In this document: positions 19,224 through 63,680 of the stretch, one piece after another
How positions within the stretch are numbered: position 1 is the stretch's first letter
Layout: each line of letters starts with the position of its first letter
Assembly: GCA_025041175.1 (NCBI GenBank)
Contig: JAKCFJ010000004.1
Coordinates: 558,001 to 622,000 of the forward strand
Direction: 5' to 3'
DNA from: Halobacteriales archaeon YIM A00010
GTDB taxonomy: Archaea > Halobacteriota > Halobacteria > Halobacteriales > Haloarculaceae
Length of the DNA: 64,000 nucleotides
Translations under genes and position numbers: made by a program
Notes under the pieces: generated by a model
What the model was told of the DNA's origin: nothing
The model's input: the letters and a program-made list of their open reading frames with translations, nothing else
Database searches by the model: none

Positions 19224-20162
19224 GAAACCCTGCTCCCGCACCGTCGATGGCGTAGCCGTGACGCGCCACACCTTTCTCGTCGTACTTCCCTTGCTGGTAC
19301 GTACAGTCGATGTAGACCGGGAAATCGATGGTCCACGTGTGACCGTCGATTTCCCCGTGGAGGTCGTGCTCGATCACGCGACCCAGCCCTCGCTCAGTTC
19401 GGTCTGGATCTTCTCGCCCCACTTCACGATCGGCATGACGAAAGCGTAGTTGTGGGCGGCGAGCAGCGTCAAACAGTACGTATCGTAGAACTCACGGTCG
19501 AGGTAGACGGCCTTGACCTCGCGGTCAAGGCCTTCGAGCACGCCGAGCAGTTCCGCGAGGATCGAGCTGACGGTGTCGCCGTCGGTGAGACGGCGTACAG
19601 CCAGCGTGTAGCGTTTGTTACGTACGCGGGCGTAGAGCGTGGCGTACCCGTGGAACGTGGTCGTTCCGGCTTTGGCGAGTGACTCGTAGAGTTCTTCCTT
19701 GGAGTCGTACTCCTCGCCGTAGTACGGACGGAGGTGGAGGTCGGCGACGACCTCCACCGACCGATCCGGAAGCAGTTCAAGGATGTCTTACTGGATGAGC
19801 GTCTTACCGACTCGTTCGAGCTCTGCGAGTTCGAACTTCGTCCGGAGGTGGTGGAGAACCGTGTTGCTGTGCGGTGATTCCTCTGAAATCTCGCAGAGGT
19901 GACTGACCGAGTCCTCGTCGCCGTAGTAGGGATCGAAGTGGAGGTCGGCGACGATCTCCACCGGTCGATCGGGAAGCGTCTCGAGGACGTCCCGCTGGAG
20001 GAGCGCATTTCCAACTGCCTCGACAGCCTCCAGATCGAACTCATCGGCGGTGACCTCCACGTTCTCACCGAAGTCAATCGGCAGGTCGTCTCCGAGGCTG
20101 TTGACGACAAAATTAAGCAGATGCTCTTCCTCTAACTCACTGTCTGCTTGGCTGGGCTTCAC
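19216..20162 (-). pseudogene. ISH3-family transposase, broken and internally duplicated
   Basis: The minus strand starts MKPSQADSELEEEHLLNFVV at 20162. ISH3 landmarks include SPHSNTVLHHLRTKFELAEL, VADLHLRPYYGEEYDSKEEL, HGYATLYARVRNKRYTLAVR, KAVYLDREFYDT and TWTIDFPVYIDCTY. A stop follows VGKTLIQ near 19788. The segment with LPDRPVEIVADLHFDPYYGD occurs once before the SPHSNTVL block and again after it (LPDRSVEVVADLHLRPYYGE). The protein is therefore a mosaic with a duplicated block. The C-terminal third is missing beyond GVARHGYAIDG. Confidence 0.85.
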
Positions 20163-20265
20163 ACCACATCCAAGCAGACACTTGCTCTAACCCGATGTGA
20201 TCGACTAAATATAGTAACGTCTATAGAATTATTTATAATAATAGGTATTTAATTAGTATCGTAGT

Positions 20266-21336
20266 GGAGCGTGTCATAGAAAGCGTCACGTACGAGGTTG
20301 CAGGGCGTGGGGATTGTGTCCAACAACACCCAAACCCTGCAAAACGTCACTTCTGCCGACGACTTCTTGAATGTCGCGGCGACCGAGACAGTACCGCTGT
20401 TTGAGTACCTCTCCTTCGGATTTCTGCTGGAATACGATGTGTTCGCCTCCTGCAAGCGGGGGCGAACACGAGTTCATGAGCCACCAGAACTCTTCCGAGG
20501 CTTTCTCCACTGCTACTACGAGGACGTCTACGGCACTCGTCCTGTCGCACGGGAACTCCAGAAGCCGCTGGTCTGGCTGAGCTGTGGCTTCGATCGACCG
20601 CCGTCGCGAGACGCGGTCGATCGCTTCCTCACCGACCTCGAACACGTCGTTGACGATGCGTTTGACCACCTCGTCGAGCAGGCCGCCGTTCGGGGCCTGC
20701 TCGACTCTACGTACCGAATCGATTCGACTCACGTCGAAGCGATTCCGTGAAACGACGATGCCTCGTGGAACTACGACTCAACCGCTGAAGAGCACTACTA
20801 CGGCTTCGGCTGTACGATCGTCTCGTCGGGAGCAAAGATTCCCATCGCAGCGGAGTTCACGCCAGCAAAGCAAGCACCAGAGGAGACGGCGATGCGCGTC
20901 ACGCGTGACGCGCTCGCCGTCGATGTCCCGATCTGGATGATCGGCGACAGTGCGTACGACACGCTGGACTGGCACGACCACCTGCTGAACGCAGGGGTCG
21001 TGCCAATCGCGCCGTACAACCCGCGAAACACGGACGATCCGCTTGACATCGAGTACCGGGTCGAAGACCGCATCGAAAACCACAGCGAGGACGTTCAGCT
21101 CAAACGCTCGGTCTTAGACGAGACATACAACCGCTGGACACAGGTCGAACGGACCAACGATGCAGTCAAGAACTGCGGCCTCGGGCCCGTCCGCGCCCGA
21201 GGCCGCGTCCACGCACGGGCGCAGGTGTTCCTTGCGCTGTGCCTCCGAGTAGTCGTCGCGATCACCAACGACGAACGAGGAGACAACCCTGGCCGCGAGA
21301 TTTTCACGGCATGAGACGGATTCTATGACACGCTCC
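20266..21336. mobile_element. Insertion sequence with 16-bp terminal inverted repeats
   Basis: GGAGCGTGTCATAGAA at 20266-20281 is matched exactly by TTCTATGACACGCTCC at 21321-21336, defining a 1071-bp element that holds one transposase gene. No target duplication could be fixed by eye. Confidence 0.88.
20298..21314 (+). pseudogene. DDE transposase of the insertion sequence, interrupted by one TGA
   Basis: 339 codons in one frame. A single TGA at 20748-20750 follows YRIDSTHVEAIP and is followed by NDDASWNYDSTAEEHYYGFG. DDE features are IDSTHV (first Asp), PIWMIGDSAYDTLDWHDHLL (second Asp) and QVERTNDAVKNCGLG (Glu). Except for the TGA the gene looks whole, so a single base change would restore it. 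It belongs to a haloarchaeal IS4/IS5-like group; the exact ISH name is not certain. Confidence 0.85.
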
Positions 21337-22275: not shown

Positions 22276-22944
22276 CTACTGCTGCCAGGGTTCAGCCAGC
22301 AGCGCGCGGAGGGACTGGAGGACGGGATCAGCCGTTGGGGCGGCCTGGTGATCGGCCGGAGAGCAGGGGACCCACACGGTCGTCATCCCCAGGGCGTGGG
22401 GAGGTTCGATGTCAGCTGTATACGAATCGCCGATGGTGACAGCGTCACATGGAGTCGTCTTGAGGGCGGCGAGGGTGTCTCAAAGGGCGCGACGGCCGCT
22501 TGAGCCCGCGTTCGGCCGGCCAAACACCATCGTGTCGAAGAATTCGTCGAGGGCCACCTGCCGCAATTTCGCGCGTTGGAGCGGTTCAGGCCCATTGGTC
22601 ACCACCCCCTAGGTGTCCCAACGCTCCTGAAGGGTGGTGAGGACCTCGCGGGCCGCGTCGACGGGCTCGACCGCCGACGCGTCGGACAGCTCGACGGCGT
22701 GAGCCACTTGCTCGGCCGCCGCCGAATACCTCCGCGCGGCGGCCAGCGTCCGAAAACACGCGACCTTGAGTTCGTCGAGGCTTTCGCCCTCGACGCAGGG
22801 GAGCACGCCCCACAGCTCCTCGATCGTACAGAACGGCTCCATCCCCACAGCCGCAAACGCGGCCGCAAGCCGCTCGTCACTGGCGATTGCCGCGTGTACC
22901 AGCGTCCCGTCCACATCGAAGAGCAGGGTCGTCGGTGAGGGCAT
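22276..22944 (-). pseudogene. HAD-superfamily hydrolase with two in-frame stops
   Basis: From ATG at 22944 the frame has HAD motif I (LLFDVDGTLVHAA). It continues to a TAG right before VVTNGPEPLQRAKLRQ (motif II, T/N), then a TGA before DTLAALKTTP, and ends with VTIGDSYTADI (motif IV acids). About 222 codons remain collinear in a single frame. It sits seven bases downstream of the prenyl synthase. It could once have been a prenyl-diphosphate phosphatase of the terpene cluster; that role is inference. The stops make it a pseudogene unless read through. Confidence 0.8.
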
Positions 22945-22950
22945 AGGGGC

Positions 22951-23886
22951 TTAGTGGTCTCTGTCGGTGCAGTATCGGCCCAGCGCGATCAAGCGGTGCC
23001 GTTGGGGTGAGTCGGGCAGCGTTTCCAGGGCAGCCAGCGCCTCGTCGACGAGGGTGTGCATGCGATGGCGAGCATAGTCGAAGCTCCCTGTTTCCTCGAA
23101 GATCTCCTGAACGGTGTCGACATCCTCGGCAGTCGTTTGTTCGGCGGGTTTGTCGAGGATATCGTAGACGCGCTCATCATCGGCATGGATGACCATGAGG
23201 GTGTGTTTGCCCGCACGCACGTCGTTGCCGATCGTTTTGCGACCTTTTCCAGCCTCGAAATCAAGGAGATCATCGCGGATCTGGAACGCCGGCCACAGCG
23301 CACTGTAGCCGTCGATGTCCAGGTCGGTGTCGGTCAGCGTCTGGGGTAATTCCACACAGAGATCGAACAGTGCGCCGGTTTTCTTCTCGACCATGTCGAG
23401 GTACTCAGCTTCGGTGATATCCCGGCGATCGGCCAACGCGAAGTCCACCTGTTGACCGACGGTCATCTCCCGGACCGCTTCGGCTGCGAGCGTCGTTCCC
23501 TCATCGGGGATGAGCGTTAGGGCGTGCGCCAGCAGCATATCCCCGACGTTGATCGCCTCAGCAGTACCGTATTCGACCCAGAACGCGGGGTCGTCGCGGC
23601 GGTGTCGATCCCCGTCGACGAGATCGTCGTGGATGAGTGAGAACGTATGGATCAGTTCGACACCAACGGCGCTGTCAAGCAAGGGCTGCTGGTCGCAGCC
23701 ACACAGCTCTCCGACGAGCAACACAAGTCCGGGCCGGAGGCGCTTTCCGCCAGTCCCGACCTGATACCGGAGGCGATCCTGGTAGCGCCGATCACGGATC
23801 GAGCGCTCGATTCGGTCATCGACCATTGGCTGTACCTCCTGAGCCAGCCAGGTGGCGAGATCGTCGGATGCGTGGTTTGGCATCAT
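22951..23886 (-). CDS. Polyprenyl diphosphate synthase (GGPP/FPP synthase type)
   Basis: About 311 residues from the MMPNHASDD start at 23886. GTGGKRLRPGLVLLVGELCG binds isopentenyl diphosphate. The first aspartate-rich motif is SLIHDDLVDGDRHRR and the second is FQIRDDLLDFEAGKGRKTIG. This trans-prenyltransferase condenses IPP with allylic diphosphates to C15 or C20 chains. Upstream in-frame codons to 23952 overlap the terpene cyclase gene and are less likely. It lies five bases after the cyclase gene and would supply its substrate. Confidence 0.93.
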   Translation of the reverse strand: MMPNHASDDLATWLAQEVQPMVDDRIERSIRDRRYQDRLRYQVGTGGKRLRPGLVLLVGELCGCDQQPLLDSAVGVELIHTFSLIHDDLVDGDRHRRDDPAFWVEYGTAEAINVGDMLLAHALTLIPDEGTTLAAEAVREMTVGQQVDFALADRRDITEAEYLDMVEKKTGALFDLCVELPQTLTDTDLDIDGYSALWPAFQIRDDLLDFEAGKGRKTIGNDVRAGKHTLMVIHADDERVYDILDKPAEQTTAEDVDTVQEIFEETGSFDYARHRMHTLVDEALAALETLPDSPQRHRLIALGRYCTDRDH

Positions 23887-23891
23887 AGAGA

Positions 23892-25334
23892 CTAGTCTGG
23901 GGTCCCATACCGTGCCGTCTCCTTCGACCACTCCAGATTGCCCCGTATCCATCGCTCAAGCGCCGCCTGATAGGCCTGAAGGTCACCGTTCCCGTCGGCG
24001 TCAGTGGGAAGGCGCTGGGAGAGCTCCGTGAACCGGTGAATTTCGTCCTCGATCAGCTCACAGACCTCAAAAACGGCTTCTTGGAGCGAACAGCCCTGGT
24101 CGTGTCGCACGACCACGACGAAGTTATTCACCTCCCCATGTGATAGTTCCTTCCGGGGGGAATACACATCGTTAGTCCACGCGATGACGTTGCCTGCCGC
24201 CATACGGAGAGCTGTGACGGCCTCGCGTTGATAGATGTCAGGAGGAAGGGTAATGTCTTTCGCCAGCTCAGCGAGGGCAAAGGCCGGGTCCGTACCGGCT
24301 GCAAGCCGCCGTTTTTTGATGTAGGTAGACCGAGCAGGAATATGATCAGGCCCCCGGTTGTGCGCTTCCCACAGAGTGCCGGCAAAGTACTCGCGATGAT
24401 GTCGGGCGAAGCGTTCTTGCCACGTCGGTGGCATCCAGGCTGACGCCCGCTGCCAGATGTCAGCGAACGCTCGCACCAACGGTTTCTCGTGCCCCCTGAG
24501 CGACTCCCCCTCGAGGACCGCGAGTAATGGCTGGAGGAACCGCATCATATCCGCAGGGTCGGTCCCTCGCTCAGTGGGATCAAGATAGTCGTCAAAGAGA
24601 AATACCCAGCTGTACCAGTCGCTGCAGAGACAGAGCGCCTCCAGCGGGGCATATGGGTGGACCCGGCAGGTAAGGCGTGGGAGTTCGGCGAGCCCGGCTG
24701 GCGGATCCTCGATCTCTGCCACCCCCAGCTGCTGAGCCCAGTCGCGAGTGTGGGCGATGACCGCCTCGAGATGCGGACTGATTTCACTGGGAAACGGACA
24801 GTCGATGGCCGGAATCTCGCCCCGCGCCATGCTGACCGGCGGAGGGTGCTGTTCGCTGAGCGTCTGTAGGCTCGTTAGGACGTCATTGAGGCCTGCCTGG
24901 ATCGTGGCCACGAAGGCAGACTGGGACACATCACCAGCCCTGTCCGCTTCAGCCACCATCTCCCCTCCGACAGCTTCGATGGTCTGTGCGGGTAGAGGTG
25001 AGGAGAGGGTGGCAGTGACGAGCGTGCTACCATCGCGGGATTGGAACGTCCACTCAACAGTGCCTTGGATCGAGCCATCGAGTGCCATGGTGAGTCCCGT
25101 TGGCTCCTCCACATCGGTCACGCGCGGCTGAACGCGGAGTGTGACCGACGGGTCGCTCCCACCATCATTCCATGTATAGATGACCACAATTCCCTCCTCA
25201 GTAGATGTCACAGTTGTGTGAGGGCAGGCGTCCAGAATGGGCTCCAGCTCTGCCAGAAGGGCGAAAATGTCGGCTGGGGGCGCGTCGATAGAGACATCCT
25301 GGTCTATAGTTGTCGGGTCGATATCCGCCGTCAT
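23892..25334 (-). CDS. Fusion of SRPBCC domain and class I terpene cyclase
   Basis: 480 residues. Residues 12-160 form an SRPBCC/START-like hydrophobic-pocket domain (VSIDAPPADIFALLAELEPI opening, EWTFQSRDGSTLVTATLSS strands). Residues 175-480 form a bacterial-type terpene cyclase. The metal motif DDYLD is at 248-252 in WVFLFDDYLDPTE, the NSE triad is N388-S392-E396 in WTNDVYSPRKE, and the C-terminal RY follows GNLEWSKETA. The cyclase would ionise and cyclise FPP or GGPP from the next gene. I know of no standard family with this SRPBCC fusion. It is the first gene of the operon. Confidence 0.9.
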   Translation of the reverse strand: MTADIDPTTIDQDVSIDAPPADIFALLAELEPILDACPHTTVTSTEEGIVVIYTWNDGGSDPSVTLRVQPRVTDVEEPTGLTMALDGSIQGTVEWTFQSRDGSTLVTATLSSPLPAQTIEAVGGEMVAEADRAGDVSQSAFVATIQAGLNDVLTSLQTLSEQHPPPVSMARGEIPAIDCPFPSEISPHLEAVIAHTRDWAQQLGVAEIEDPPAGLAELPRLTCRVHPYAPLEALCLCSDWYSWVFLFDDYLDPTERGTDPADMMRFLQPLLAVLEGESLRGHEKPLVRAFADIWQRASAWMPPTWQERFARHHREYFAGTLWEAHNRGPDHIPARSTYIKKRRLAAGTDPAFALAELAKDITLPPDIYQREAVTALRMAAGNVIAWTNDVYSPRKELSHGEVNNFVVVVRHDQGCSLQEAVFEVCELIEDEIHRFTELSQRLPTDADGNGDLQAYQAALERWIRGNLEWSKETARYGTPD

Positions 25335-26118: not shown

Positions 26119-26188
26119 CTGATTGTATGCCTCGTACACCGAGTGCACGGAGTTCTCTAAGCTTATCGGTACAAACTCCACTCGTGAT

Positions 26189-27238
26189 ATGGCAGGTTAT
26201 GGTTTGTCGGTGATGGGCGAAAAAATTTTACATGGAGGACTAATTAAAACACACATGAGACAAAATAGAAAGGCCATTTTTGAGAAGCTAACTGAAGATA
26301 CTGAGCCCCCCAACATCGTTGAAGAAGTCAAGCAAACAGAGCTGCCGCCTTCTGTAAAAAGATTGTCGGATAAATATAATAGCGAAATTGGACATCGTCG
26401 CGAATTTTTATGGAGTTGGGTATTCAATGTGTATGATCATTTCACGTTAGACTCAGTACCCGATAGACATATCGAGGCGACAAAAACTCGAAAAACGTTA
26501 ATGACTATATTTATTAGTATTGTAGACGACATTGCCGAAGTAAACAACGACCGGGAAACCTTTGAGCAAGCAAGAAAGATTCCATTTCCCAACGCGACCA
26601 TCAACAGAACAGAGGAGATGGATTTGGCGGCCCTGTCAATAGCTGAAGACGGATGGGACGAACTCATCAATCAACTTTCAGATGCGCCCCGATATGACGA
26701 ATTTCTTAGTCAGTTTCGATACGATATACGACAGGGGCTCAACTCTATTGATTACTCTCTCTTAGTGAACGAGACTCCTGACATAGCTACTCAAACAGGG
26801 GCCTTGCAATATATCTCTCACAATATGGTCTTCTTCTCCTTCATGAATATCGACCTGATGGCGTCCCCAGAGTTTTCACGGGAAGATTTAGCAACAGTGC
26901 GGGAGCTTTTCTGGAAAGCTCAAGAGATGGGGCGAGTTTGTAATTGGATTGCAACTTGGGAACGAGAAGTTCATGAAGGAGATTATTCATCGGGTGTTAT
27001 CATAAGAGCCATTCAAGAGGGTGTAATCGAACCAGGTGACATTGAAGATCATCCTGAAGCTGTGATAGAGACAATTAAAAGAAGTAACATAGAAGAAAGA
27101 TTCATCGATGAATGGTTTGAGTTGTACAACCAAGTAGATGAATTTGATGAGAACACAGAAAACCTCATGTTAGAAAGAACAACAGAAACATTAAAAATTA
27201 TAATGGTTTATCATCTTATGGGTGAAGAATATATATAA
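26189..27238 (+). CDS. Divergent class I terpene synthase-like protein
   Basis: About 349 residues from ATG at 26189; a TTG at 26123 would add 22 residues. Almost entirely helical in composition. It carries a DDxxE motif in ISIVDDIAEVNND (residues 113-117) and an NSE-like triad in CNWIATWEREVHEGDYSS (N252, T256, E260), at the spacing expected for class I terpene cyclases. Asp is replaced by Trp after the Asn. Base composition is AT-richer than neighbours, suggesting acquisition. It follows the RHH gene and is divergent from the main cyclase operon. Substrate unknown. Confidence 0.65.
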   Translation: MAGYGLSVMGEKILHGGLIKTHMRQNRKAIFEKLTEDTEPPNIVEEVKQTELPPSVKRLSDKYNSEIGHRREFLWSWVFNVYDHFTLDSVPDRHIEATKTRKTLMTIFISIVDDIAEVNNDRETFEQARKIPFPNATINRTEEMDLAALSIAEDGWDELINQLSDAPRYDEFLSQFRYDIRQGLNSIDYSLLVNETPDIATQTGALQYISHNMVFFSFMNIDLMASPEFSREDLATVRELFWKAQEMGRVCNWIATWEREVHEGDYSSGVIIRAIQEGVIEPGDIEDHPEAVIETIKRSNIEERFIDEWFELYNQVDEFDENTENLMLERTTETLKIIMVYHLMGEEYI

Positions 27239-27258: not shown

Positions 27259-27366
27259 TGAAGTCAGGCAGGTAGGTTGCTTATGCACAGCTGAGCTCGA
27301 AATCTATACCGGTTGTCTAAATTTCGCAGATAGCCATGTATGACGAATCCACCTAGCCGACTTCTG
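27259..27366. repeat. Palindromic MITE-like repeat, copy C
   Basis: Starts TGAAGTCAGGCAGGTAGGTT and ends CCACCTAGCCGACTTCTG. The right end overlaps the last codons of the IS1595-type transposase remnant and supplies its stop. Confidence 0.88.
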
Positions 27367-27990
27367 ATACATCGTAACACAGCAGTTTCTCGAACCAGTC
27401 GTCCGGTGAGTTGAGTTTCAGTCCGAGGAAGCCGAGGTATTTCTGGAGGTGATGCTTCGAGACACCTCGAAACTTCGCCAGCCACTGGCGAAGGAAGCTA
27501 TGGCGGTTCTCACACGTGTTTGTGTGGGCGTCACCGATCACGTAGGTGTCGGAGTGGGTGACGGCCAGATGGCCGTCCACCCCCTCCTTCTCCTTGATGT
27601 CATCGTAGATCGTGTAGCCATCAGTGCAAAGGTTGACGCTTCCATCGCCGTACTCGGCGATGTCCTCGTCGGCGTCTTGCAGATCCTCACGGACGAGAAA
27701 CTGAACTCGTCCGTCATCCCGACGGACGAGTGTCAACACTGGTGGTTTGTCTGATTCGAAAGTTCCGCGTCCTTTTTTGAGAATCCGCGCTCGCGCGGAC
27801 TCCCGTTCTCGTCTTCGAGTCCTTTCTCACCGGCTGTGACGTAGACCTCGTCAGCTTCGCACACGCCGTAGAGGTCGAACTCGTCGATATCACCGCTGAC
27901 GTCCTGGACTTTGTGAACGAAGTTGAGAACCGCTTCGTAGTCTCGATCGAGGTCCCGAGCGATCTGAGCGGTAATGGCTTAGAGAAGGTG
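27353..27990 (-). pseudogene. IS1595-family transposase, frameshifted and truncated
   Basis: The minus strand reads ITAQIARDLDRDYEAVLNFV and VCEADEVYVTAGEKG, then shifts frame in a run of six A at about 27775. It continues GRGTFESDKPPVLTLVRRDD, DGYTIYDDIKEKEG, HTNTCENRHSFLRQWLAKFR and FLGLKLNSPDDWFEKLLCY. The N-terminus beyond about 27965 has a stop and decays. The last residues (SEVG) and stop come from repeat copy C. Confidence 0.85.
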
Positions 27991-28526: not shown

Positions 28527-29408
28527 ATGGCAATAGATACCGAAACACTAGAATCATGGGCCAAATATGAAAGTGGCCCCATCGATTCCGCACAGCGGAC
28601 GCATAACCGAATCCAGAACGAGTTGAAGTCGAGTAACGAGCTTTCCGAGGTGAACTTCGATCCATATCTGCAGGGCTCCTACGCCAACTACACTATTGTA
28701 CGATCGAGTAGCGATGTCGATATCGTTGCCCAGCTCGAGGATATGTACTATTCTGATCTGTCCGATCTTAGTGGCAGTGAACAAAATAGGTGGCGTAGCA
28801 ACTCTAGTGATCCGGCCTATGGATTTCACGAATTTCGAGCGGATGTTGTTGACGTACTTGAGTCGCAGTTTGGGTCATCGGCTATCGACCCGGACGGGAA
28901 GGCTATCGAAGTTAATACTTCAAAGCTACCACTCAACGCCGATGTGCTCGTTTGTGCGAATCATCGAGATTATTATCACTATCCAAACGGTTACCACGAG
29001 GGTATCGCGTTTTTTGATCGCAGCGGCACGAAGATTGTTAACTACCCGAAGAAGCATATCAATAAGGGAAGTGACAGACAAGCAAGCACCAGAGACCGTT
29101 TTAAGGAGACTGTCCGGATCTTCAAGCGAGCCCGGAACTACCTTGTCGACAACAACGAGCTAGACAAGAAGAACATCCCCTCGTACTTCATCGAGAATCT
29201 GCTCTATAACGTTCCGGATGGACGCTACACCCACGATAAGCAGGACCGCGTCGCGAAGATCCTGGAATATCTAAACAGGACCGATTACAGCGATTGGAGC
29301 TGCCAGAATGGAATTACAGATATGTTCGGCTCGGGTCCCGCAGAGTGGAACACTCGATACGCGGACCAGTACGTCAACGCCATGGTCGATCTCTGGAACG
29401 ACTGGTAA
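28527..29408 (+). CDS. CD-NTase (cGAS/DncV-like nucleotidyltransferase) of a CBASS-like system
   Basis: 293 residues. The nucleotidyltransferase core has LQGSYANYTIVRSSSDVDIV: G50-S51 and the metal-binding D63 and D65. A third Asp lies at 139 (LPLNADVLVCANH). The C-terminal helical part contains IPSYFIENLLYNVPDGRY, typical of CD-NTases. Such enzymes sense infection and make cyclic oligonucleotides that activate a partner effector. The next gene starts four bases after its stop and encodes a Cap15-like membrane effector. Product chemistry cannot be predicted. Confidence 0.88.
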   Translation: MAIDTETLESWAKYESGPIDSAQRTHNRIQNELKSSNELSEVNFDPYLQGSYANYTIVRSSSDVDIVAQLEDMYYSDLSDLSGSEQNRWRSNSSDPAYGFHEFRADVVDVLESQFGSSAIDPDGKAIEVNTSKLPLNADVLVCANHRDYYHYPNGYHEGIAFFDRSGTKIVNYPKKHINKGSDRQASTRDRFKETVRIFKRARNYLVDNNELDKKNIPSYFIENLLYNVPDGRYTHDKQDRVAKILEYLNRTDYSDWSCQNGITDMFGSGPAEWNTRYADQYVNAMVDLWNDW

Positions 29409-29411
29409 GCA

Positions 29412-30056
29412 ATGCACACATACTCTACAGACAACGATCTTCGCCCGAAAGTCTACGGCGTTCTGGCGCTACTCGCCTACGGAATTACGATCGTCGTCGA
29501 GTTTCTGACCACCGCCCTCTCAATTATCCTTCCATTCGCGGCAGGGTTCGTTATCTCATGGGGGCTCGCATTCGCTATCGTCTGGAAAGCCCACAGCCAT
29601 GGAGTCTGGAAGACATGGCCTGTACAAGCGCTCGGAATCACGCGCGTCCCGGATCTGAATGGAAAATGGGAAGGTTGGATCATCACCTCGTACCAAGGGG
29701 ACATTCCCGATGAGGCACTCCATTCCGATAATGACCCAAGCGAAGATGGTCAGAAGATGATAGCCTCACTCGACATCGACCAGACGTGGCGCAAGATCAA
29801 CATCCACTTCGAGACAACGCAAACCCAATCGGACAGTAACGGGGCGACGATGCTAACCGAGGAAGGAAAGTGGCCGAACATCAGTTATCAGTATGAGAAT
29901 CCCGGTTCCTCACTGGTAGAGGGCCTAGGCATGCACTTCGGGACTGCCTCTCTGGAGTACCGTGATGAGAACGATACAGAGACGCTCGAAGGCCTCTACT
30001 ACACCGGCCCAGGTCGCGACAATAACGGGCTCATGTACTTCGAGCAGGTCGATTGA
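29412..30056 (+). CDS. Cap15-like CBASS effector (two TM helices plus beta-rich domain)
   Basis: 214 residues. Two hydrophobic helices lie at about residues 14-35 and 37-58. The rest is beta-rich, starting at VPDLNGKWEGWIITSYQGD, the way the SMODS-associated 2TM-beta (Cap15) barrel begins. It continues through ASLDIDQTWRKINIHFETT to GLYYTGPGRDNNGLMYFEQ. Known Cap15 proteins bind the cyclic nucleotide and damage the inner membrane, causing abortive infection. Here it would act on the archaeal cell membrane. Placement four bases after the CD-NTase gene supports the call. Confidence 0.82.
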   Translation: MHTYSTDNDLRPKVYGVLALLAYGITIVVEFLTTALSIILPFAAGFVISWGLAFAIVWKAHSHGVWKTWPVQALGITRVPDLNGKWEGWIITSYQGDIPDEALHSDNDPSEDGQKMIASLDIDQTWRKINIHFETTQTQSDSNGATMLTEEGKWPNISYQYENPGSSLVEGLGMHFGTASLEYRDENDTETLEGLYYTGPGRDNNGLMYFEQVD

Positions 30057-56328: not shown

Positions 56329-57072
56329 ATGAGAACACTCGTCACGTTAACAGCTCGAAATGACTTTTCATATTATAATAAATACAATCATAAATTACAG
56401 GGCCGATTGTACAATGATATAGAACGAACAGGTTACAAGAACATCCATAGCAGTCAGGGGCTCACGGGTTTCAGTTTCTCTAACATCTTTCCACCTCGGA
56501 ACGCGGAAGAAGGTGATACGCGTCGCTTCATCTTTGCAGCACCAGACGAACAGTTAGTGGCAGATGTGGCCTATGGCTTCTGTTCAGAACCCGAAGTCAA
56601 CATTGGACCGATGGCCTTAGAGGCCAAAGAAGCCTTTACGCTAGATCCTGCCGTCGAAGAGCAAGGAACGCTCACCACAGGAACGCCGATCGTCCTCCGG
56701 ATGGATGCTGAAAACGCTCGTGAGAAGGGGATCGACCCAGGAGATTATGACCGACTCTACTGGCGACCAGAACACGGCATGGACTGCTTCTTCGATCGCC
56801 TCTACGCTAACTTACAGTCGAAGTATCAGCTGGTCTACGACGATGAACCCCCTGAACCACCGTACTTTTCGGGCTACTCGTTGGACCGATCAATCGCCAA
56901 GCCGGTGTCATTCGCTGACGGTGATGTCCAGTTCATCGGCGGGGAATGGACCTTCGAATACGAGCTCCAGGGACAAAAGCATCGGCAGATACTTGACTTG
57001 GCACTTGATGTCGGTCTTGGGGAGCTGAATGGACTAGGCTTCGGGTTTGTGAACCGTGGGGCGGACGTCTGA
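56329..57072 (+). CDS. cas6: Cas6 CRISPR RNA endoribonuclease (type I-B)
   Basis: 247 residues. It opens MRTLVTLTARNDFSYYNKYN, the haloarchaeal Cas6 start, with TGFSFSNIFPPRN in the first ferredoxin fold. The C-terminal Gly-rich loop is ELNGLGFGFVNRG. It cleaves pre-crRNA within repeats. It is first of a tightly packed operon; its last base region overlaps the cas8b start (57072). Confidence 0.94.
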   Translation: MRTLVTLTARNDFSYYNKYNHKLQGRLYNDIERTGYKNIHSSQGLTGFSFSNIFPPRNAEEGDTRRFIFAAPDEQLVADVAYGFCSEPEVNIGPMALEAKEAFTLDPAVEEQGTLTTGTPIVLRMDAENAREKGIDPGDYDRLYWRPEHGMDCFFDRLYANLQSKYQLVYDDEPPEPPYFSGYSLDRSIAKPVSFADGDVQFIGGEWTFEYELQGQKHRQILDLALDVGLGELNGLGFGFVNRGADV

Positions 57073-59045
57073 TGCTGCTCGATGCACTGGCCACGATCGG
57101 TGACGAACTCGCCAAGCAGCATTTCGAGTCGAAGTACCTCGCATGTTGTTCTCCGGACGCTCTGCGTGGCAATCAGGCCATCGAGACAGTCATAGAACTC
57201 GAGTTCAAGCGAACTGAAGAAGGGTTAACATACCGAGGAACGAGAATCGTCGATCCGATCGATCCACTGGAGATGGCTATCAAGTACGGGTACGCTAACC
57301 GGTATAACCACCTTGATCACAGTCTCACCCAGCGGGCCAGTAGCAGTATTCTCACAGAGTTCGATCGGATGATAGACTGGCCGCAGGACAACGCCATCGG
57401 TGATGTCGTTGATGATCCATTCGTCGAAGAGTTAGCGGACGCGTTCGATACCTACGCCTCGAGAATCCGTGATGATCTCGAACAGTACGACGAATCCATC
57501 GATTACAAGGTTCTTCTGACAATTCGGTTCCAAGAAGATGGATCAATCCAGTATCCTGGTGAGATAGAGGCACTTGCTCGTGGGGCCTTCAATGCCTACA
57601 AAGGGTCGCTCGAAACATTCTCAAATGCGACGGGAAGTAGCGGTATCACTCGGTGTGCCATCTGCGACGAGGAAGGTGAAACTTTCGGACTCGGTGCAGG
57701 GTTAGACGCCATGTATACCTTCAAGAAGCAATGGCCGTTCCCGAAGTACAATGCCTCTAACGCGTGGCAGTCTCGCCCCCTCTGTGCAGAGTGTATCAGA
57801 AACCTCGAGGCGGTGTCAAAGCTCTTCTTGGACAAGCAAGATCACGGAGCCCCGGGCGTACGGTGTCGAGTTGTCCCCTATGCACTCCCGATTGATGGTG
57901 CCGATGATCGTCTCCGAAGTCTTATTCGAGGAGGGTACAAGAACCTGACCGACGACGAGAGCGAACGGCCACTGTCAAACGCTTGGGCCCAGTACCAAAG
58001 TGAAGCGGAAATACTGAACGAAGCGGAAGTGCTCCGTCTTTCTTTCGTTCATTACATCAGAGACAGTAACAAAACACACGGTGTGGCGACGATCGACGGC
58101 GTCTCTATCGATCACGTCAACAGTATCATAGAGACGTTCGAAACCGTCCTCGACACGCACCCGTTCTTCCAGATCGAACCATTCTCAAATCTCACATCAC
58201 CCAGTGAGAAGCAGGTCTTCACTGGGATGTGGCTCTATGATCTGCTGTGCGACATCTCAGATAGCGATCACGAAAGCAATCCGATCGGCGACGACAATCG
58301 GTGGGCAAACTATACGGAAGCCCTCCTCACGGCGTCGTCGATCCGATACGGAGAGTTCGTCAATGGGCTCACGCGCGAAGCAATCGTACGTTACCGCGAG
58401 CGCCTCTCGAATGACGACGAAGAAGATTATCCCTACGATGGCTTTCACGTCGCTCGCGCGTTCGCCTTCCAACGAACCTGCGCTCGGCTCGACCTGCTCA
58501 CTGACGACCATACCGACCATACCATGAATCTGGACAGCATTACAGGCGATTACGTGACGCTTGGCGATGGACTCGCCGAGTTCATCGACGCCCACGATAG
58601 TATCGACCAGTCGCCCGGTAGAAGTGCCGCCTTCATCCTCGGTGCCGTGGCAGCGCAGCTCTCGGCCTGGCAAATGAACCGGAATCTCAACCGAACCTTC
58701 GTCCAGAATCGCGACGCTGCCCATCTATCAACGGAAAATCTACCGAAGTGGGAGACTGCGATCTGGGAGAAGGCCAAGACCTACAACGCCCAGAACGGAA
58801 ACTACGGGATTCCGTGGCGTACAGCTCATGAACTGTTCCACAAAGCGGTCCTTCGAGGCGAAAACGAAGGGTGGAACGCATCCAAAGACGAGCTGCAGTA
58901 TCACTACATCCTTGGTGTCACGTTCGGCCCGAAGATAGCTACTCGAGCCTCTGAAAATTGGGAACTGTACGCCGAGGACGACGAAGAGACGAGCGACATG
59001 CGAGAGGTACAGAGCGTCGCAACCGAACACGAAGTAGAAAACTAA
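57072..59045 (+). CDS. cas8b: Cas8b/Csh1 large subunit of type I-B Cascade
   Basis: 657 residues. A zinc-finger-like region lies near residues 195-245 (RCAICDEEGETFGLG and RPLCAECIRNLE). Length and position between cas6 and cas7 fit Cas8b of haloarchaea, which recognises the PAM. The C-terminal part is helical. The gene is intact. Confidence 0.9.
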   Translation: MLLDALATIGDELAKQHFESKYLACCSPDALRGNQAIETVIELEFKRTEEGLTYRGTRIVDPIDPLEMAIKYGYANRYNHLDHSLTQRASSSILTEFDRMIDWPQDNAIGDVVDDPFVEELADAFDTYASRIRDDLEQYDESIDYKVLLTIRFQEDGSIQYPGEIEALARGAFNAYKGSLETFSNATGSSGITRCAICDEEGETFGLGAGLDAMYTFKKQWPFPKYNASNAWQSRPLCAECIRNLEAVSKLFLDKQDHGAPGVRCRVVPYALPIDGADDRLRSLIRGGYKNLTDDESERPLSNAWAQYQSEAEILNEAEVLRLSFVHYIRDSNKTHGVATIDGVSIDHVNSIIETFETVLDTHPFFQIEPFSNLTSPSEKQVFTGMWLYDLLCDISDSDHESNPIGDDNRWANYTEALLTASSIRYGEFVNGLTREAIVRYRERLSNDDEEDYPYDGFHVARAFAFQRTCARLDLLTDDHTDHTMNLDSITGDYVTLGDGLAEFIDAHDSIDQSPGRSAAFILGAVAAQLSAWQMNRNLNRTFVQNRDAAHLSTENLPKWETAIWEKAKTYNAQNGNYGIPWRTAHELFHKAVLRGENEGWNASKDELQYHYILGVTFGPKIATRASENWELYAEDDEETSDMREVQSVATEHEVEN

Positions 59046-59051
59046 CCCACT

Positions 59052-60029
59052 ATGTCAGCTGACAATACCACTGTGCAAAATCGCTCAGAAATCGTTTTCC
59101 TGTACGACGCCGTCGACACCAACCCGAACGGGGATCCACTGACCGAAGAGAATCGCCCCCGAGTCGACGACTACACCGAAGAGGCGATCGTCACCGACGT
59201 TCGGCTCAAACGGGTGGTCCGAGACTACCTCGACCGGGAGGGACACTCGATACTCGTCAAAGCGTCAGGCGGCGAGGCACGAGATGACAAAAACGATAGG
59301 TACGCCGAGCTTTTCGAGCAGATCGACGAGGATAACGAGGAAGACGTAATCGATACCTTCCTGGATCTTGCCGCTGACGTTCGATTGTTCGGCGACAGCA
59401 TGGCGTTCGAGGACGCACCCACGGAACAATCGTTCACCGGCCCGGTCCAGTTTAACTTCGGCCGATCGATGCATCCTGTTCACGAAGTGACTCATGGCAA
59501 GACATCGGTGCTCGCTGCCGATAGCGAAGATGGCGGTGCGGGTGGGAATATGTTCTCGGAACACAGGGTTGCGTACGCAATGCTGCGGTTCCACGGCGTT
59601 GTCGACGAGAACGCCGCAACCACAACCAATCTCACCGAAAACGATGTGGATCTGCTTGAAGACGGGCTGTGGTACGGGACGAGAGAGCTGACGAACACCT
59701 CATCCAAGCGTGGGCACGAACCTCGACTGCTACTGCGGGTTGAGTACACTGACGACGAGTATCATGTTGGTGACCTCCATCGTTCGATCAGCTTAACCCC
59801 ACAAACGGATGGTCCAAAGGCAATGCGAGACGTCTCGCATGCCACGATCGAATGCGACGATATGCTAGGTCTGTTAGATGATCACCGAGACCGGATCGAG
59901 CATGTCGATGTTCGCGCCAGCCGACGCCTGCAGATCAGCGCCCACAATGAAGAAGGTGGTCCAGAGAGACTCGAGGCAACACTAAAGGCTACTCTCGGAG
60001 CCGAGGCCGTCACTGTCCAGTATGACTGA
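59052..60029 (+). CDS. cas7: Cas7/Csh2 backbone subunit
   Basis: 325 residues. EIVFLYDAVDTNPNGDPLTE followed by ENRPRVD is the Cas7 (DevR/Csh2) signature. PVQFNFGRSMHPVHEVTHGK and HRVAYAMLRFHGVVDENAAT follow. It polymerises along crRNA in Cascade. It overlaps cas5 by eight bases. Confidence 0.95.
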   Translation: MSADNTTVQNRSEIVFLYDAVDTNPNGDPLTEENRPRVDDYTEEAIVTDVRLKRVVRDYLDREGHSILVKASGGEARDDKNDRYAELFEQIDEDNEEDVIDTFLDLAADVRLFGDSMAFEDAPTEQSFTGPVQFNFGRSMHPVHEVTHGKTSVLAADSEDGGAGGNMFSEHRVAYAMLRFHGVVDENAATTTNLTENDVDLLEDGLWYGTRELTNTSSKRGHEPRLLLRVEYTDDEYHVGDLHRSISLTPQTDGPKAMRDVSHATIECDDMLGLLDDHRDRIEHVDVRASRRLQISAHNEEGGPERLEATLKATLGAEAVTVQYD

Positions 60030-60750
60030 CGACTGCATCGTCTTCGACGTGGCCGGAGAACATGCCCACTTTCGGAAGCCTCACACCACGTCACCAGCGA
60101 TGACGTTCGGACTCCCACCACGGACGACCGTTGCTGGGATGGTCGCTGCTATACTCGGACTCCCTCGGGACTCGTACTACGATTCCTTCGGTCGCGAGTC
60201 GAGTCGAATTGCTATCTCGCTCGAATCACCCATCCGGCGACTGTCGATGGCGGTCAACATCCTCAACACGGAAGGGAGCGATGGCAAAACAAAAGGGGCA
60301 ACCCCAGGCAAGTTCTTCCGCAGCCATCGACAACAGAATGTCTTCGAATACCTCTGTGACCCGGCGTACCGACTGTACGTCTCACTCGACAACGAGGGGC
60401 TGATGGATCGCCTTGAGTCGAAGTTATCCGCTGGGAAGAGCGCATATGCACTGTCGCTTGGACTCAGTGAACACCTGGCCTGGTACGATTACGTGGGACG
60501 TTTCGAAATCGAGTCTAGGGAGGGAAAGGCATCGGTTCGATCGGCACTCCCTGGCGAAAGCCTGACCATCATTCCCGATTCCGGGGCGGAATATGTGTCT
60601 GAGCGTATGCCCGCATTCATGCGCTCGGATGGAGACGGTCGCATTGCCGACGGTTCACAGAACGTGACGTACGACCGTTCAGGCGAGCCGATCGCTGTTC
60701 GAGACGAGCCCTATTCGATCGTCGGAGGCGATACAGTTGTCTTCTCGTAA
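60022..60750 (+). CDS. cas5: Cas5 (type I-B)
   Basis: 242 residues. CIVFDVAGEHAHFRKPHTTS and AMTFGLPPRTTVAGMVAAIL are the Cas5 N-terminal signature, holding the crRNA 5' handle. It overlaps cas7 and cas3, so is translated in a coupled way. Confidence 0.94.
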   Translation: MTDDCIVFDVAGEHAHFRKPHTTSPAMTFGLPPRTTVAGMVAAILGLPRDSYYDSFGRESSRIAISLESPIRRLSMAVNILNTEGSDGKTKGATPGKFFRSHRQQNVFEYLCDPAYRLYVSLDNEGLMDRLESKLSAGKSAYALSLGLSEHLAWYDYVGRFEIESREGKASVRSALPGESLTIIPDSGAEYVSERMPAFMRSDGDGRIADGSQNVTYDRSGEPIAVRDEPYSIVGGDTVVFS

Positions 60751-63193
60751 TATTATCTCACACCCAGATACAGACGCTGACAATCGTACGCTTGACGATC
60801 AGTTTCCAAATGATCGGCCACTCCAAAACCATCTGAAAGGAGTCACCAGCCGGTGTTCACGGGGGAGCCATGGCGACAAACGTCGCTTCCTCGAAACTAT
60901 CGCCTCAACACACGATCTGGGCAAAGCAACATCGTTCTTTCAAGCGTACATCAGAGGTATCGAATCACGCAGTCAAAAAACATCACACGCACCTATTTCA
61001 GGACTTGCCTGTTACCGAGCCCTTCGAAACCACGGCTTCTGCCGACGTCAATCGTTCGCAGGGCTTCTCGCCGTCGACAAACACCACTCTCGTCTGGGAA
61101 ACGTTACTGGGAATGGCTCCTTGTTCGAACGCCTTGTCGATGATTCACGGCGGGACATACTGGAAGAACAGGCTACTGACCTACAATCGCACGCAGAATC
61201 AGTCCAGTTGATGTGTGATGCTCTTAAGATCCCACTGGATATCAAGGAATTCGCGAGCTGGGTGTCCGACGAAGAATACCTCAAAGAATTTTTACGGACC
61301 ATCTATCGAGATGGGCAATTGAACCTCGAAACTAGCAGCGAGGATGCCTATGGAGTAGTCGAAGGGTACTCTCGACTGGTCTCCGCTGACAAAATCGACG
61401 CTGCCCAGTACGAACAGCCTGATCGACGACCGATCCCTGTCAATGCCGTTGCATCATATGTCGAGCAGGAGTTTGGCGAACCAGCACCCAATTCTATCGA
61501 TGAGCTTCGAGAGCGCGCTAGAACTGAAGTCCGAGCTGCGGTCCAAGAGATCGATCTCTCACAGTCTATCTTCGAGCTGACGCTTCCGACAGGAATCGGC
61601 AAAACACTCACGAGTCTCGACGCGGCACTGATCCTTCGGAACCGGATCGAACAGGAACGCGGCGTACAGCCACGGATCGTTTATACAGTCCCGTACACCT
61701 CGATCATCGATCAGAATTTTACCGTCTTCGAAACAGTGCTCGCCAATGCCACAGGTGAACAGATCACCCCCGAACTCCTCCTGAAACACCACTATCTGTC
61801 GGACTCGACGTACGTAACGAACGATACGAGAGACCCAGACCAAGACGCTGACCGAGCAATGATGCTGACAGAACGCTGGGAGAGTGAGTTCGTTGCGACG
61901 ACGTTCGTCCAGTTCTTGGAAAGCCTCATCGTACCATCGAACGCTCAGTCGATGAAACTCCCGAACCTAGAGGATGCCATCGTGTTGTTGGACGAAGTTC
62001 AGGCAGTTCCCGCTCGATATTGGGATGTCGTCCGCGAAGTCCTCGAGCTCGTCTCAGATCGACTCAATTGCACCTTCATCGCAATGTCGGCTACACAGCC
62101 CGCACTGTTCGACGACGCAATACCACTCATCGATACTCAAAACGATGATAAAACGAATACCAGCAACCAGAACCGATATTTCGAGCGCCTCGACAGGGTC
62201 ACGTTTCAGTTCGATCAGAGCATCAACAATGAACCGTTGAGTCATGCTGCCCTCGCCGACCGCGTAGCAACGTATGCGCGATCGAATCCAGACGAAGACC
62301 TCCTCGTCGTGTGTAACACGATCAGATCGGCCACAACTCTCTTCGAGGAGCTAATGGACAGATCTACAACAGGAGATACATCGTTCATATACCTATCGAG
62401 TGCCGTCCGACCGAAGGATCGCCAACGCCGGATCCAGCGGCTCCGATCGTCAGACAAAGAGCAGTTCGTCGTCGTCAGTACCCAGGTCGTCGAAGCTGGC
62501 GTCGATATCGACATGGATGCTGTCTGGAGGGACTTCGCTCCGTTCGACTCGATCGTCCAGGCTGCCGGCCGGTGTAATCGAGATTGGAACTCTCAAGCGA
62601 GAGGGATCGTTACAGTCGTGTCGATCGCCGACGACGGCGATCACCCTGCGCGGGCAATCTACGATGATCCACGGCTACATGCAACACGTCGAATAATCAC
62701 AGAAAACGCCGATATCCCGTATGAAACCCCCGAATACGAGGTAACCAGCGATCTTGTCGATCGATACTTCGACATCGTTGAAGAGGTGAAACAGACGAAT
62801 GACTCGCTCACAGAGCTTCGTTCGTGGCAATTTGAGGACGCCGAAATCTCTCTCATCGAAAACACGCTCTCAGCCGAAGTCTTCGTAATGACCGGACAGA
62901 AGACGAGCACCGGTGAAAGGCCAGCAACGTTTACTGCGATGCAGAAGGCTGTCGAAACGGGTGATCGGGCGGCAATTGCCCGGACCAAACCCGCCTTCTA
63001 CGAAAACGTCGTGACAGTCAATCTCTATTCGGAGACCTCCGACCGAGCAACAGACCTCCGGTCACTCCCCCTTCCCGATACTGATCTCGGCGTGTACTTT
63101 CTCAACGCTGATTCCCGTCGGTACGGGAAGTGGTACGATGAGGATACAGGGTTCTCGATTCCGGACAACACCGTCGATGCGAGGTTGATCTGA
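60737..63193 (+). CDS. cas3: Cas3 nuclease-helicase
   Basis: 818 residues, probably from TTG at 60737, inside cas5. HD nuclease motifs: IASTHDLGKATSF, SHAPISGLACYR and LLAVDKHHSRLGN. Helicase motifs: Walker A TLPTGIGKTLTS near residue 290, DEVQ in IVLLDEVQAVPAR, SAT in FIAMSATQPALF, and motif VI SIVQAAGRCNRDW. It unwinds and degrades target DNA. All key residues appear present. Confidence 0.94.
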   Translation: MSSRNIISHPDTDADNRTLDDQFPNDRPLQNHLKGVTSRCSRGSHGDKRRFLETIASTHDLGKATSFFQAYIRGIESRSQKTSHAPISGLACYRALRNHGFCRRQSFAGLLAVDKHHSRLGNVTGNGSLFERLVDDSRRDILEEQATDLQSHAESVQLMCDALKIPLDIKEFASWVSDEEYLKEFLRTIYRDGQLNLETSSEDAYGVVEGYSRLVSADKIDAAQYEQPDRRPIPVNAVASYVEQEFGEPAPNSIDELRERARTEVRAAVQEIDLSQSIFELTLPTGIGKTLTSLDAALILRNRIEQERGVQPRIVYTVPYTSIIDQNFTVFETVLANATGEQITPELLLKHHYLSDSTYVTNDTRDPDQDADRAMMLTERWESEFVATTFVQFLESLIVPSNAQSMKLPNLEDAIVLLDEVQAVPARYWDVVREVLELVSDRLNCTFIAMSATQPALFDDAIPLIDTQNDDKTNTSNQNRYFERLDRVTFQFDQSINNEPLSHAALADRVATYARSNPDEDLLVVCNTIRSATTLFEELMDRSTTGDTSFIYLSSAVRPKDRQRRIQRLRSSDKEQFVVVSTQVVEAGVDIDMDAVWRDFAPFDSIVQAAGRCNRDWNSQARGIVTVVSIADDGDHPARAIYDDPRLHATRRIITENADIPYETPEYEVTSDLVDRYFDIVEEVKQTNDSLTELRSWQFEDAEISLIENTLSAEVFVMTGQKTSTGERPATFTAMQKAVETGDRAAIARTKPAFYENVVTVNLYSETSDRATDLRSLPLPDTDLGVYFLNADSRRYGKWYDEDTGFSIPDNTVDARLI

Positions 63194-63194
63194 C

Positions 63195-63680
63195 ATGGAC
63201 GTCACAGGGCTCATGGTAAAGTACTACCACACCTGTCACCGAGAACTGTGGTTCTACGCAAACAATATTGATGTCGACCGAGAGAACGTTGGGATCCGCC
63301 ACGGGTCGGCAGTGGATGACTCTTCGTATGAGGACAAGAAACGCTCGGTGTTCGTCGACGGTCGGATTCAGCTTGACGTACTGGACAATGGGAATATCGT
63401 CGAGGTCAAACGATCGAGCGCGCTCGAAGAGCCGGGTGAAATGCAACTAAAGTTCTACCTCTGGTATCTGAAGACTAAGAAAGACATCGACGTCACCGGG
63501 GAACTAGCGTACCCCACAGAACGCAAACGGGAGTCGATCGAGCTAACACACGAAGACGAACAGGAGATGGAACGGATCGTCGATGCCATTCAGGAGATTA
63601 TCTCCGAACCAACGCCGCCGGAAGCCGAACGAAAGCCGATCTGCGACGCTTGTGCGTACCACGACCTCTGTTGGGTGTAA
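63195..63680 (+). CDS. cas4: Cas4 nuclease
   Basis: 161 residues, two bases after cas3. KYYHTCHRELWFYANNIDVD gives the first Cys and ICDACAYHDLCWV the last three, forming the Fe-S site. RecB-like motifs are GRIQLDVLDNGNIVEVKRSS (Asp and ExK) and MQLKFYLWYL (Q). It trims spacers for integration with Cas1-Cas2. Confidence 0.94.
   Translation: MDVTGLMVKYYHTCHRELWFYANNIDVDRENVGIRHGSAVDDSSYEDKKRSVFVDGRIQLDVLDNGNIVEVKRSSALEEPGEMQLKFYLWYLKTKKDIDVTGELAYPTERKRESIELTHEDEQEMERIVDAIQEIISEPTPPEAERKPICDACAYHDLCWV

Follow-up and report, generated by a model that had tools for sequence, protein, structure and literature searches.

The window analyzed here, a 64,000-nucleotide stretch of the 5,969,888-base genome of the haloarchaeon YIM A00010, carries a gene predicted to join an SRPBCC-type, START-like domain to a class I terpene cyclase within one reading frame. 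Each half of the encoded protein is of a known kind; their combination was absent from the catalogues searched and was seen in haloarchaea alone. No model for the whole fusion was returned by Pfam and NCBIfam scans, RefSeq names its homologs "SRPBCC family protein" or hypothetical, and no paper naming an SRPBCC-terpene cyclase fusion was found in a library of 5.39 million papers. What is new here is that, among three of the copies, similarity is much higher between the SRPBCC halves than between the cyclase halves. Together with a polyprenyl diphosphate synthase gene, the fusion gene may form a two-gene haloarchaeal terpene pathway in which the SRPBCC domain would serve as a generic hydrophobic pocket, or solubilizing module, beside the cyclase, a reading of the sequences that we hold with moderate confidence.

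Translation of the minus strand gives an open reading frame without internal stop or frame break (Table 1); the plus-strand reading of the same interval contains many stops. This frame and the Pfam profiles for both halves bear out the 480-residue, two-domain protein described in an earlier note on this DNA, and the window ORF holds no undetected frameshift or stop that would separate the two domains. Since the frame is also unbroken in five further copies from three other genomes, with one more copy interrupted by a stop, the fusion is neither an assembly error nor a chance arrangement. A frame break or misassembly was accordingly ruled out by the intact frames of several independent genomes.

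Table 1. Features of the fusion locus, with positions in the window and the basis of each assignment
Feature	Residues	Positions	Strand	Basis
SRPBCC-terpene cyclase fusion gene	480 aa	23892..25334	-	Single ORF from ATG
SRPBCC domain (predicted)	8-165	24840..25313	-	Polyketide_cyc2 (Pfam), hhalign, predicted secondary structure, composition
Junction	161-172	24819..24854	-	(S/C)EQxxPPxxM, alignment of fused copies
Class I terpene cyclase domain (predicted)	173-477	23904..24818	-	PF19086, E value of 2e-50
DDYLD metal-binding motif	248-252	24579..24593	-	D248, D249, and D252 invariant in six fusions
Candidate pyrophosphate-sensor arginine	R342	24309..24311	-	Invariant in six fusions
NSE triad, NDVYSPRKE	388-396	24147..24173	-	N388, D389, S392, and E396 invariant
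RY pair	475-476	23907..23912	-	R475 invariant; Y476 replaced by F in one of six
Polyprenyl diphosphate synthase	311 aa	22951..23886	-	PF00348, E value of 2.6e-46; DDLVD and DDLLD motifs
HAD hydrolase gene		22609-22944	-	Starts 6 nt behind polyprenyl synthase
Second terpene-synthase-like gene		26123..27238	+	Weak PF19086 match, 24.5 bits (cut-off, 23.7); DDIAE, NWIATWERE

The C-terminal half is very probably a catalytic class I terpene cyclase. Its match to Terpene_syn_C_2 (PF19086) covers residues 239 to 433 with 171.7 bits against a cut-off of 23.7, and the key motif residues, Y476 excepted, are invariant across the six intact fusions despite cyclase-half identities of 39 to 56%. The intact DDYLD, the N388/S392/E396 triad, and the RY tail were found at the positions previously claimed for them. 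R342, a candidate pyrophosphate-sensor arginine, lies exactly 46 residues before N388, where bacterial enzymes carry that sensor (about 46 residues ahead of the NSE triad). The best solved relatives are 9m25, 9hqd, and 7zrn (E values of 3e-49 to 5e-47, end-to-end alignment), and the best match, 9m25, is titled "Type I diterpene synthase from Streptomyces." These bacterial PF19086 enzymes, which include T-muurolol synthase (9hqd) and 10-epi-cubebol synthase (7zrn), share both the motifs and the whole half with the window protein but have no SRPBCC domain, whereas the host of the window gene is an archaeon. The best NCBIfam match is isoafricanol synthase (NF041624), a sesquiterpene enzyme, with 212 bits against an equivalog cut-off of 500; as the window protein falls far below every equivalog cut-off, its product is not readable from the match. 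Two low-confidence AlphaFold models were built from just 4 and 3 sequences (mean pLDDT of 44 and 46). For the alpha-helical terpenoid fold, Foldseek with the first of these (mean pLDDT of 44) gave a probability of 1.00 to 7zrn and others (E value of 1e-12), but at an rmsd of 15 to 17.

For the N-terminal half, SRPBCC membership is supported by profiles and by the predicted order of secondary-structure elements. Polyketide_cyc2 (PF10604, SRPBCC clan) matches residues 9 to 119 of the window protein with 26.2 bits, slightly below the 27.4 cut-off; of the five remaining intact fusions, three pass it (35.5, 28.7, and 27.8 bits). In hhalign, a profile built from six N-terminal halves aligns with an SRPBCC protein that stands alone in haloarchaea (probability of 93%, E value of 2.7e-7), and the N-terminal profile yielded a single weak SRPBCC-type match among solved structures (1xn5, E value of 0.028). 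The predicted elements (E8-17, H20-36, E40-45, E48-55, E64-72, E80-89, E92-100, E103-111, and H138-162; mean pLDDT of 46.5) follow the b-a-b6-a order of the helix-grip SRPBCC fold, as read from low-confidence models. The SRPBCC nature attributed earlier to this region is thus upheld by Pfam in three homologs, by hhalign, and by the predicted element order. With the low-confidence model itself, SRPBCC folds are frequent among the weak Foldseek ranks (E values of 0.008 and worse), and VIA-align returns phosphomannomutase C-terminal domains along with START-like proteins (Z of 5 to 7). Profile match and predicted element order are common to the window N terminus and PF10604 proteins; SRPBCC proteins normally stand alone or join other partners. 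The half is strongly acidic (15.8% D+E versus 2.4% K+R), and the cyclase half is less extreme (15.6% acidic versus 9.7% basic). In all intact copies, 22 positions of the SRPBCC domain are invariant, and no catalytic signature was noted among them. The junction motif is kept in every fused copy, with E161, Q162, P165, and P166 invariant, and, in the split copy described below, it remains in the ORF beyond the stop.

A search for the same fusion in other genomes, as the earlier note had proposed, found five further intact copies in three genomes and one broken copy. Halocatena marina carries a fusion 55% identical to that of the window on a 474-kb plasmid, with a synthase 6 nt behind; Actinarchaeum halophilum YIM 93972 carries two on a 99.7-kb plasmid, where they point away from each other and each has a synthase of its own; and G302, a genome of another haloarchaeal family, also carries two (copies a and b). 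The six intact fusions have frames of 463 to 480 codons and are about 40 to 55% identical, and full-length identity of the homologs to the window protein is 46 to 55%. In YIM A00013, an in-frame TAG lies inside the SRPBCC part, the cyclase ORF keeps its motifs, and no synthase lies behind the split copy. This split gene was rejected as the ancestral state because its stop interrupts the SRPBCC part, and the ORF beyond that stop opens, in the same frame, with the C-terminal helix of the SRPBCC domain and the conserved junction.

Intact or split fusions occur in 4 of 7 genomes of the window's genus, where the gene is therefore not universal, in 4 of 146 of its family, and in 1 of 125 of the family of G302. 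All strong PF19086 matches in 392 Halobacteriales genomes are fused or split copies. In the plasmid collection, 85 records contain a cyclase relative (73 of them from Streptomyces), and the whole fusion is present only in three haloarchaeal records; a close-relatives scan of bacterial and archaeal contigs returned two haloarchaeal loci. No fusion was found outside Halobacteriales in the plasmid collection or, for bacterial chromosomes, by the close-relatives scan, and viral contigs and PHROGs yielded no relative. The earlier statement that terpene cyclases are rare in archaea therefore holds for the canonical, Streptomyces-type enzymes across the 392 Halobacteriales genomes, but not for a divergent terpene-synthase-like family, which accounts for most of the weak matches in 67 of them.

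The two halves of the fusion have diverged unequally. Comparison of A. halophilum copy 1 with G302 copies a and b gives 62 to 69% identity for the SRPBCC halves and 44 to 47% for the cyclase halves, whereas the order is reversed between the window protein and A. halophilum copy 1 (SRPBCC, 43%; cyclase, 51%). The contrast extends to synonymous codon differences at identical residues, which amount to 28/100 in the SRPBCC half versus 75/127 in the cyclase half (p of 4e-6) and, in a second comparison, to 19/81 versus 78/131 (p of 3e-7); the control pair, window and H. marina, had no such contrast (p of 0.69). Furthermore, copy 1 of A. halophilum and copy a of G302 share a 78%-identical DNA block that spans approximately residues 9 to 166 and ends at the domain junction. 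SRPBCC halves so much closer than the cyclase halves, synonymous sites included, suggest separate histories of the two modules. The topology conflict between the halves is not significant (AU test, p of 0.235), a common tree not being rejected because the cyclase tree is star-like; taken by itself, the divergence contrast makes an exchange of domain-sized pieces likely.

The synthase gene follows the fusion gene on the same strand after a gap of 5 nt (23887-23891), and both these coordinates and the PF00348 match confirm the operon previously noticed. With a start at the upstream in-frame ATG (23952), the synthase gene would extend into that of the cyclase; as homologs start near 23886, the start was placed there. 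The synthase keeps both aspartate-rich motifs, with F five residues before the first and no aromatic residue at the fourth position, which is the archaeal GGPP-type arrangement. A synthase lies directly behind the fusion at five loci, one of these synthases being broken (G302 copy a), and the four intact synthases share 66 to 77% identity. The HAD-like frame behind the window synthase runs on through in-frame stops and appears broken; for this reason, and because no HAD gene lies behind the synthase at the homologous loci examined, it was left out of the pathway.

Regarding origin, the cyclase half is closest to bacterial enzymes. Its nearest plasmid relative, from Streptomyces durmitorensis (35.7%), has a P450 before it and, as in the window, a polyprenyl synthase directly behind, yet the haloarchaeal synthase is just 31 to 33% identical, approximately, to that of S. 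durmitorensis. Synthase relatives of 54 to 57% identity sit in other haloarchaea: beside squalene-hopene-cyclase-like and MMPL genes in Halorussus and in another genome of the window's genus, and in apparent lipid-synthesis loci in a third genus. In the simplest account, a bacterial-type cyclase would have been acquired and then combined, within haloarchaea, with an SRPBCC domain and a synthase that were both haloarchaeal. As a separate observation, a squalene-hopene-cyclase-like gene, an MMPL transporter, and a synthase relative (54 to 55%) stand in a row at L063:4035-9921 and L078:7581-13659, loci that belong to Halorussus caseinilyticus and G002, of the window's genus; these rows may represent a haloarchaeal class II pathway for cyclic isoprenoids. 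A cytochrome P450 is also encoded near the G302 copy b fusion, beyond a transposase piece (L047:3521-4675), and another near a relative of the synthase in G005 (L079:11009-12229), both of them possible tailoring enzymes.

We infer enzyme activity, chain length, and pocket function as follows. The synthase (22951-23886) would make a C20 (or C15) prenyl diphosphate, and the position of its F residue together with the diterpene relative 9m25 makes us lean to a C20 substrate. Using Mg2+ bound at DDYLD and at the NSE triad, the cyclase half would ionize this prenyl diphosphate; cyclization would then, judging from the invariant motifs, yield a terpene hydrocarbon or alcohol. The acidic, covalently attached SRPBCC domain would most likely take up the insoluble product (or present the substrate) at molar salt and could then pass the product to the membrane or to a tailoring enzyme. 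The helix-grip fold in general binds hydrophobic ligands.

Alternatively, the SRPBCC domain may be purely structural and bind no isoprenoid, dimerizing or stabilizing the cyclase in molar salt as a halophilic solubility tag. Its acidity, far beyond that of the cyclase half, fits such a role, as do similar SRPBCC domains on different cyclases, and the split copy of YIM A00013, which keeps its cyclase motifs although its SRPBCC part is cut, suggests that the domain may be dispensable. However, the usual ligand-binding character of the fold and the 22 invariant positions argue for more than a tag, and other haloarchaeal enzymes adapt to salt without an added domain, so we regard this explanation as somewhat unlikely. 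It is quite unlikely that the domain acts as a second catalyst that converts the cyclase product, in the manner of aromatase/cyclases or norcoclaurine synthase, within a bifunctional protein. ZhuI and StfQ aromatase/cyclases and norcoclaurine synthase do appear among the weak Foldseek ranks (E values of 0.008 and worse), but these stem from a low-confidence model and mirror the shared fold. The invariant positions, as noted, include no apparent catalytic signature, and the joining of like SRPBCC halves to very different cyclases speaks against product-specific chemistry; the domain is probably not a second, product-specific catalyst.

That the copies, which several carriers bear on plasmids, are decaying genes without function is very unlikely. 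A stop cuts one copy, G302 copy a is followed by a broken synthase, and the window operon is followed by the HAD gene with its in-frame stops and has transposase pieces nearby, but six intact frames with motifs invariant after divergence to about 40 to 55% identity, and four intact synthases, are hard to reconcile with decay. Finally, the cyclase and synthase resemble the cargo models of family 2B encapsulin terpene loci, and the best NCBIfam hits for the two genes include NF041168 (165 bits) and NF041169 (173.8 bits), yet these scores are far under the cut-offs of 1200 and 450 bits, and the window's genome contains no match to the shell that such loci have (NF041163, family 2B, at that model's sensitivity), so that an encapsulin cargo akin to bacterial terpene cyclases and polyprenyl transferases is extremely improbable and was rejected.

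The protein differs from known multidomain terpene synthases, such as geosmin synthase, the plant alpha-beta-gamma enzymes, and the fungal prenyltransferase-cyclase chimeras. In these enzymes, as in the window protein, a class I cyclase domain is covalently tied to a partner, but their partners are other terpene or prenyltransferase domains, whereas here the partner is a predicted START-like pocket and the prenyl synthase is encoded by a separate neighboring gene. A recurrent fusion of a lipid pocket and a terpene cyclase offers a test case of how enzymes release highly hydrophobic products and, for the engineering of product export, a design taken from nature.

YIM A00010 is one of the haloarchaea that form hyphae and spores (PMC10067837), so the canonical terpene cyclase occurs in an archaeal lineage noted for its Streptomyces-like development; terpenes and geosmin are both absent from the main text of that report. 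As of 2023, halocin and bacterioruberin were the only secondary metabolites to which archaeal gene clusters had been tied with confidence (PMC10105419), and given this scarcity a two-gene pathway in cultivated strains offers a tractable entry point. A more specific version, in which the START-like domain catches the leaving terpene and hands it on to the membrane or a tailoring enzyme, and in which the terpenoid made is tied to development in haloarchaea with hyphae and spores, is unlikely; if true, it would be a functional parallel to the geosmin-type volatiles of Streptomyces.

The second terpene-synthase-like gene of the window (Table 1) lies 788 bp from the fusion gene, is divergently transcribed, and is a possible partner of the fusion. 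It was not found in the other genomes of the window's genus, and no solved structure related by sequence was found. Relatives of this weak PF19086 type, at most about 40% identical and mostly of about 320 to 370 aa, account for most of the weak matches counted above and possibly represent an uncharacterized haloarchaeal terpene synthase family. Judging from ORFs, transposase-like pieces flank the locus at 19374-21314 and 27353-27739, which fits a mobile region. Farther along on the plus strand, positions 28527-30056 encode a two-gene CBASS defense system that pairs a SMODS oligonucleotide cyclase with a 2TM Cap15-type effector, and ORFs at 56329-63680 resemble a type I CRISPR-cas operon with Cas6-, Cas8-, Cas7-, Cas5-, Cas3-, and Cas4-like proteins.
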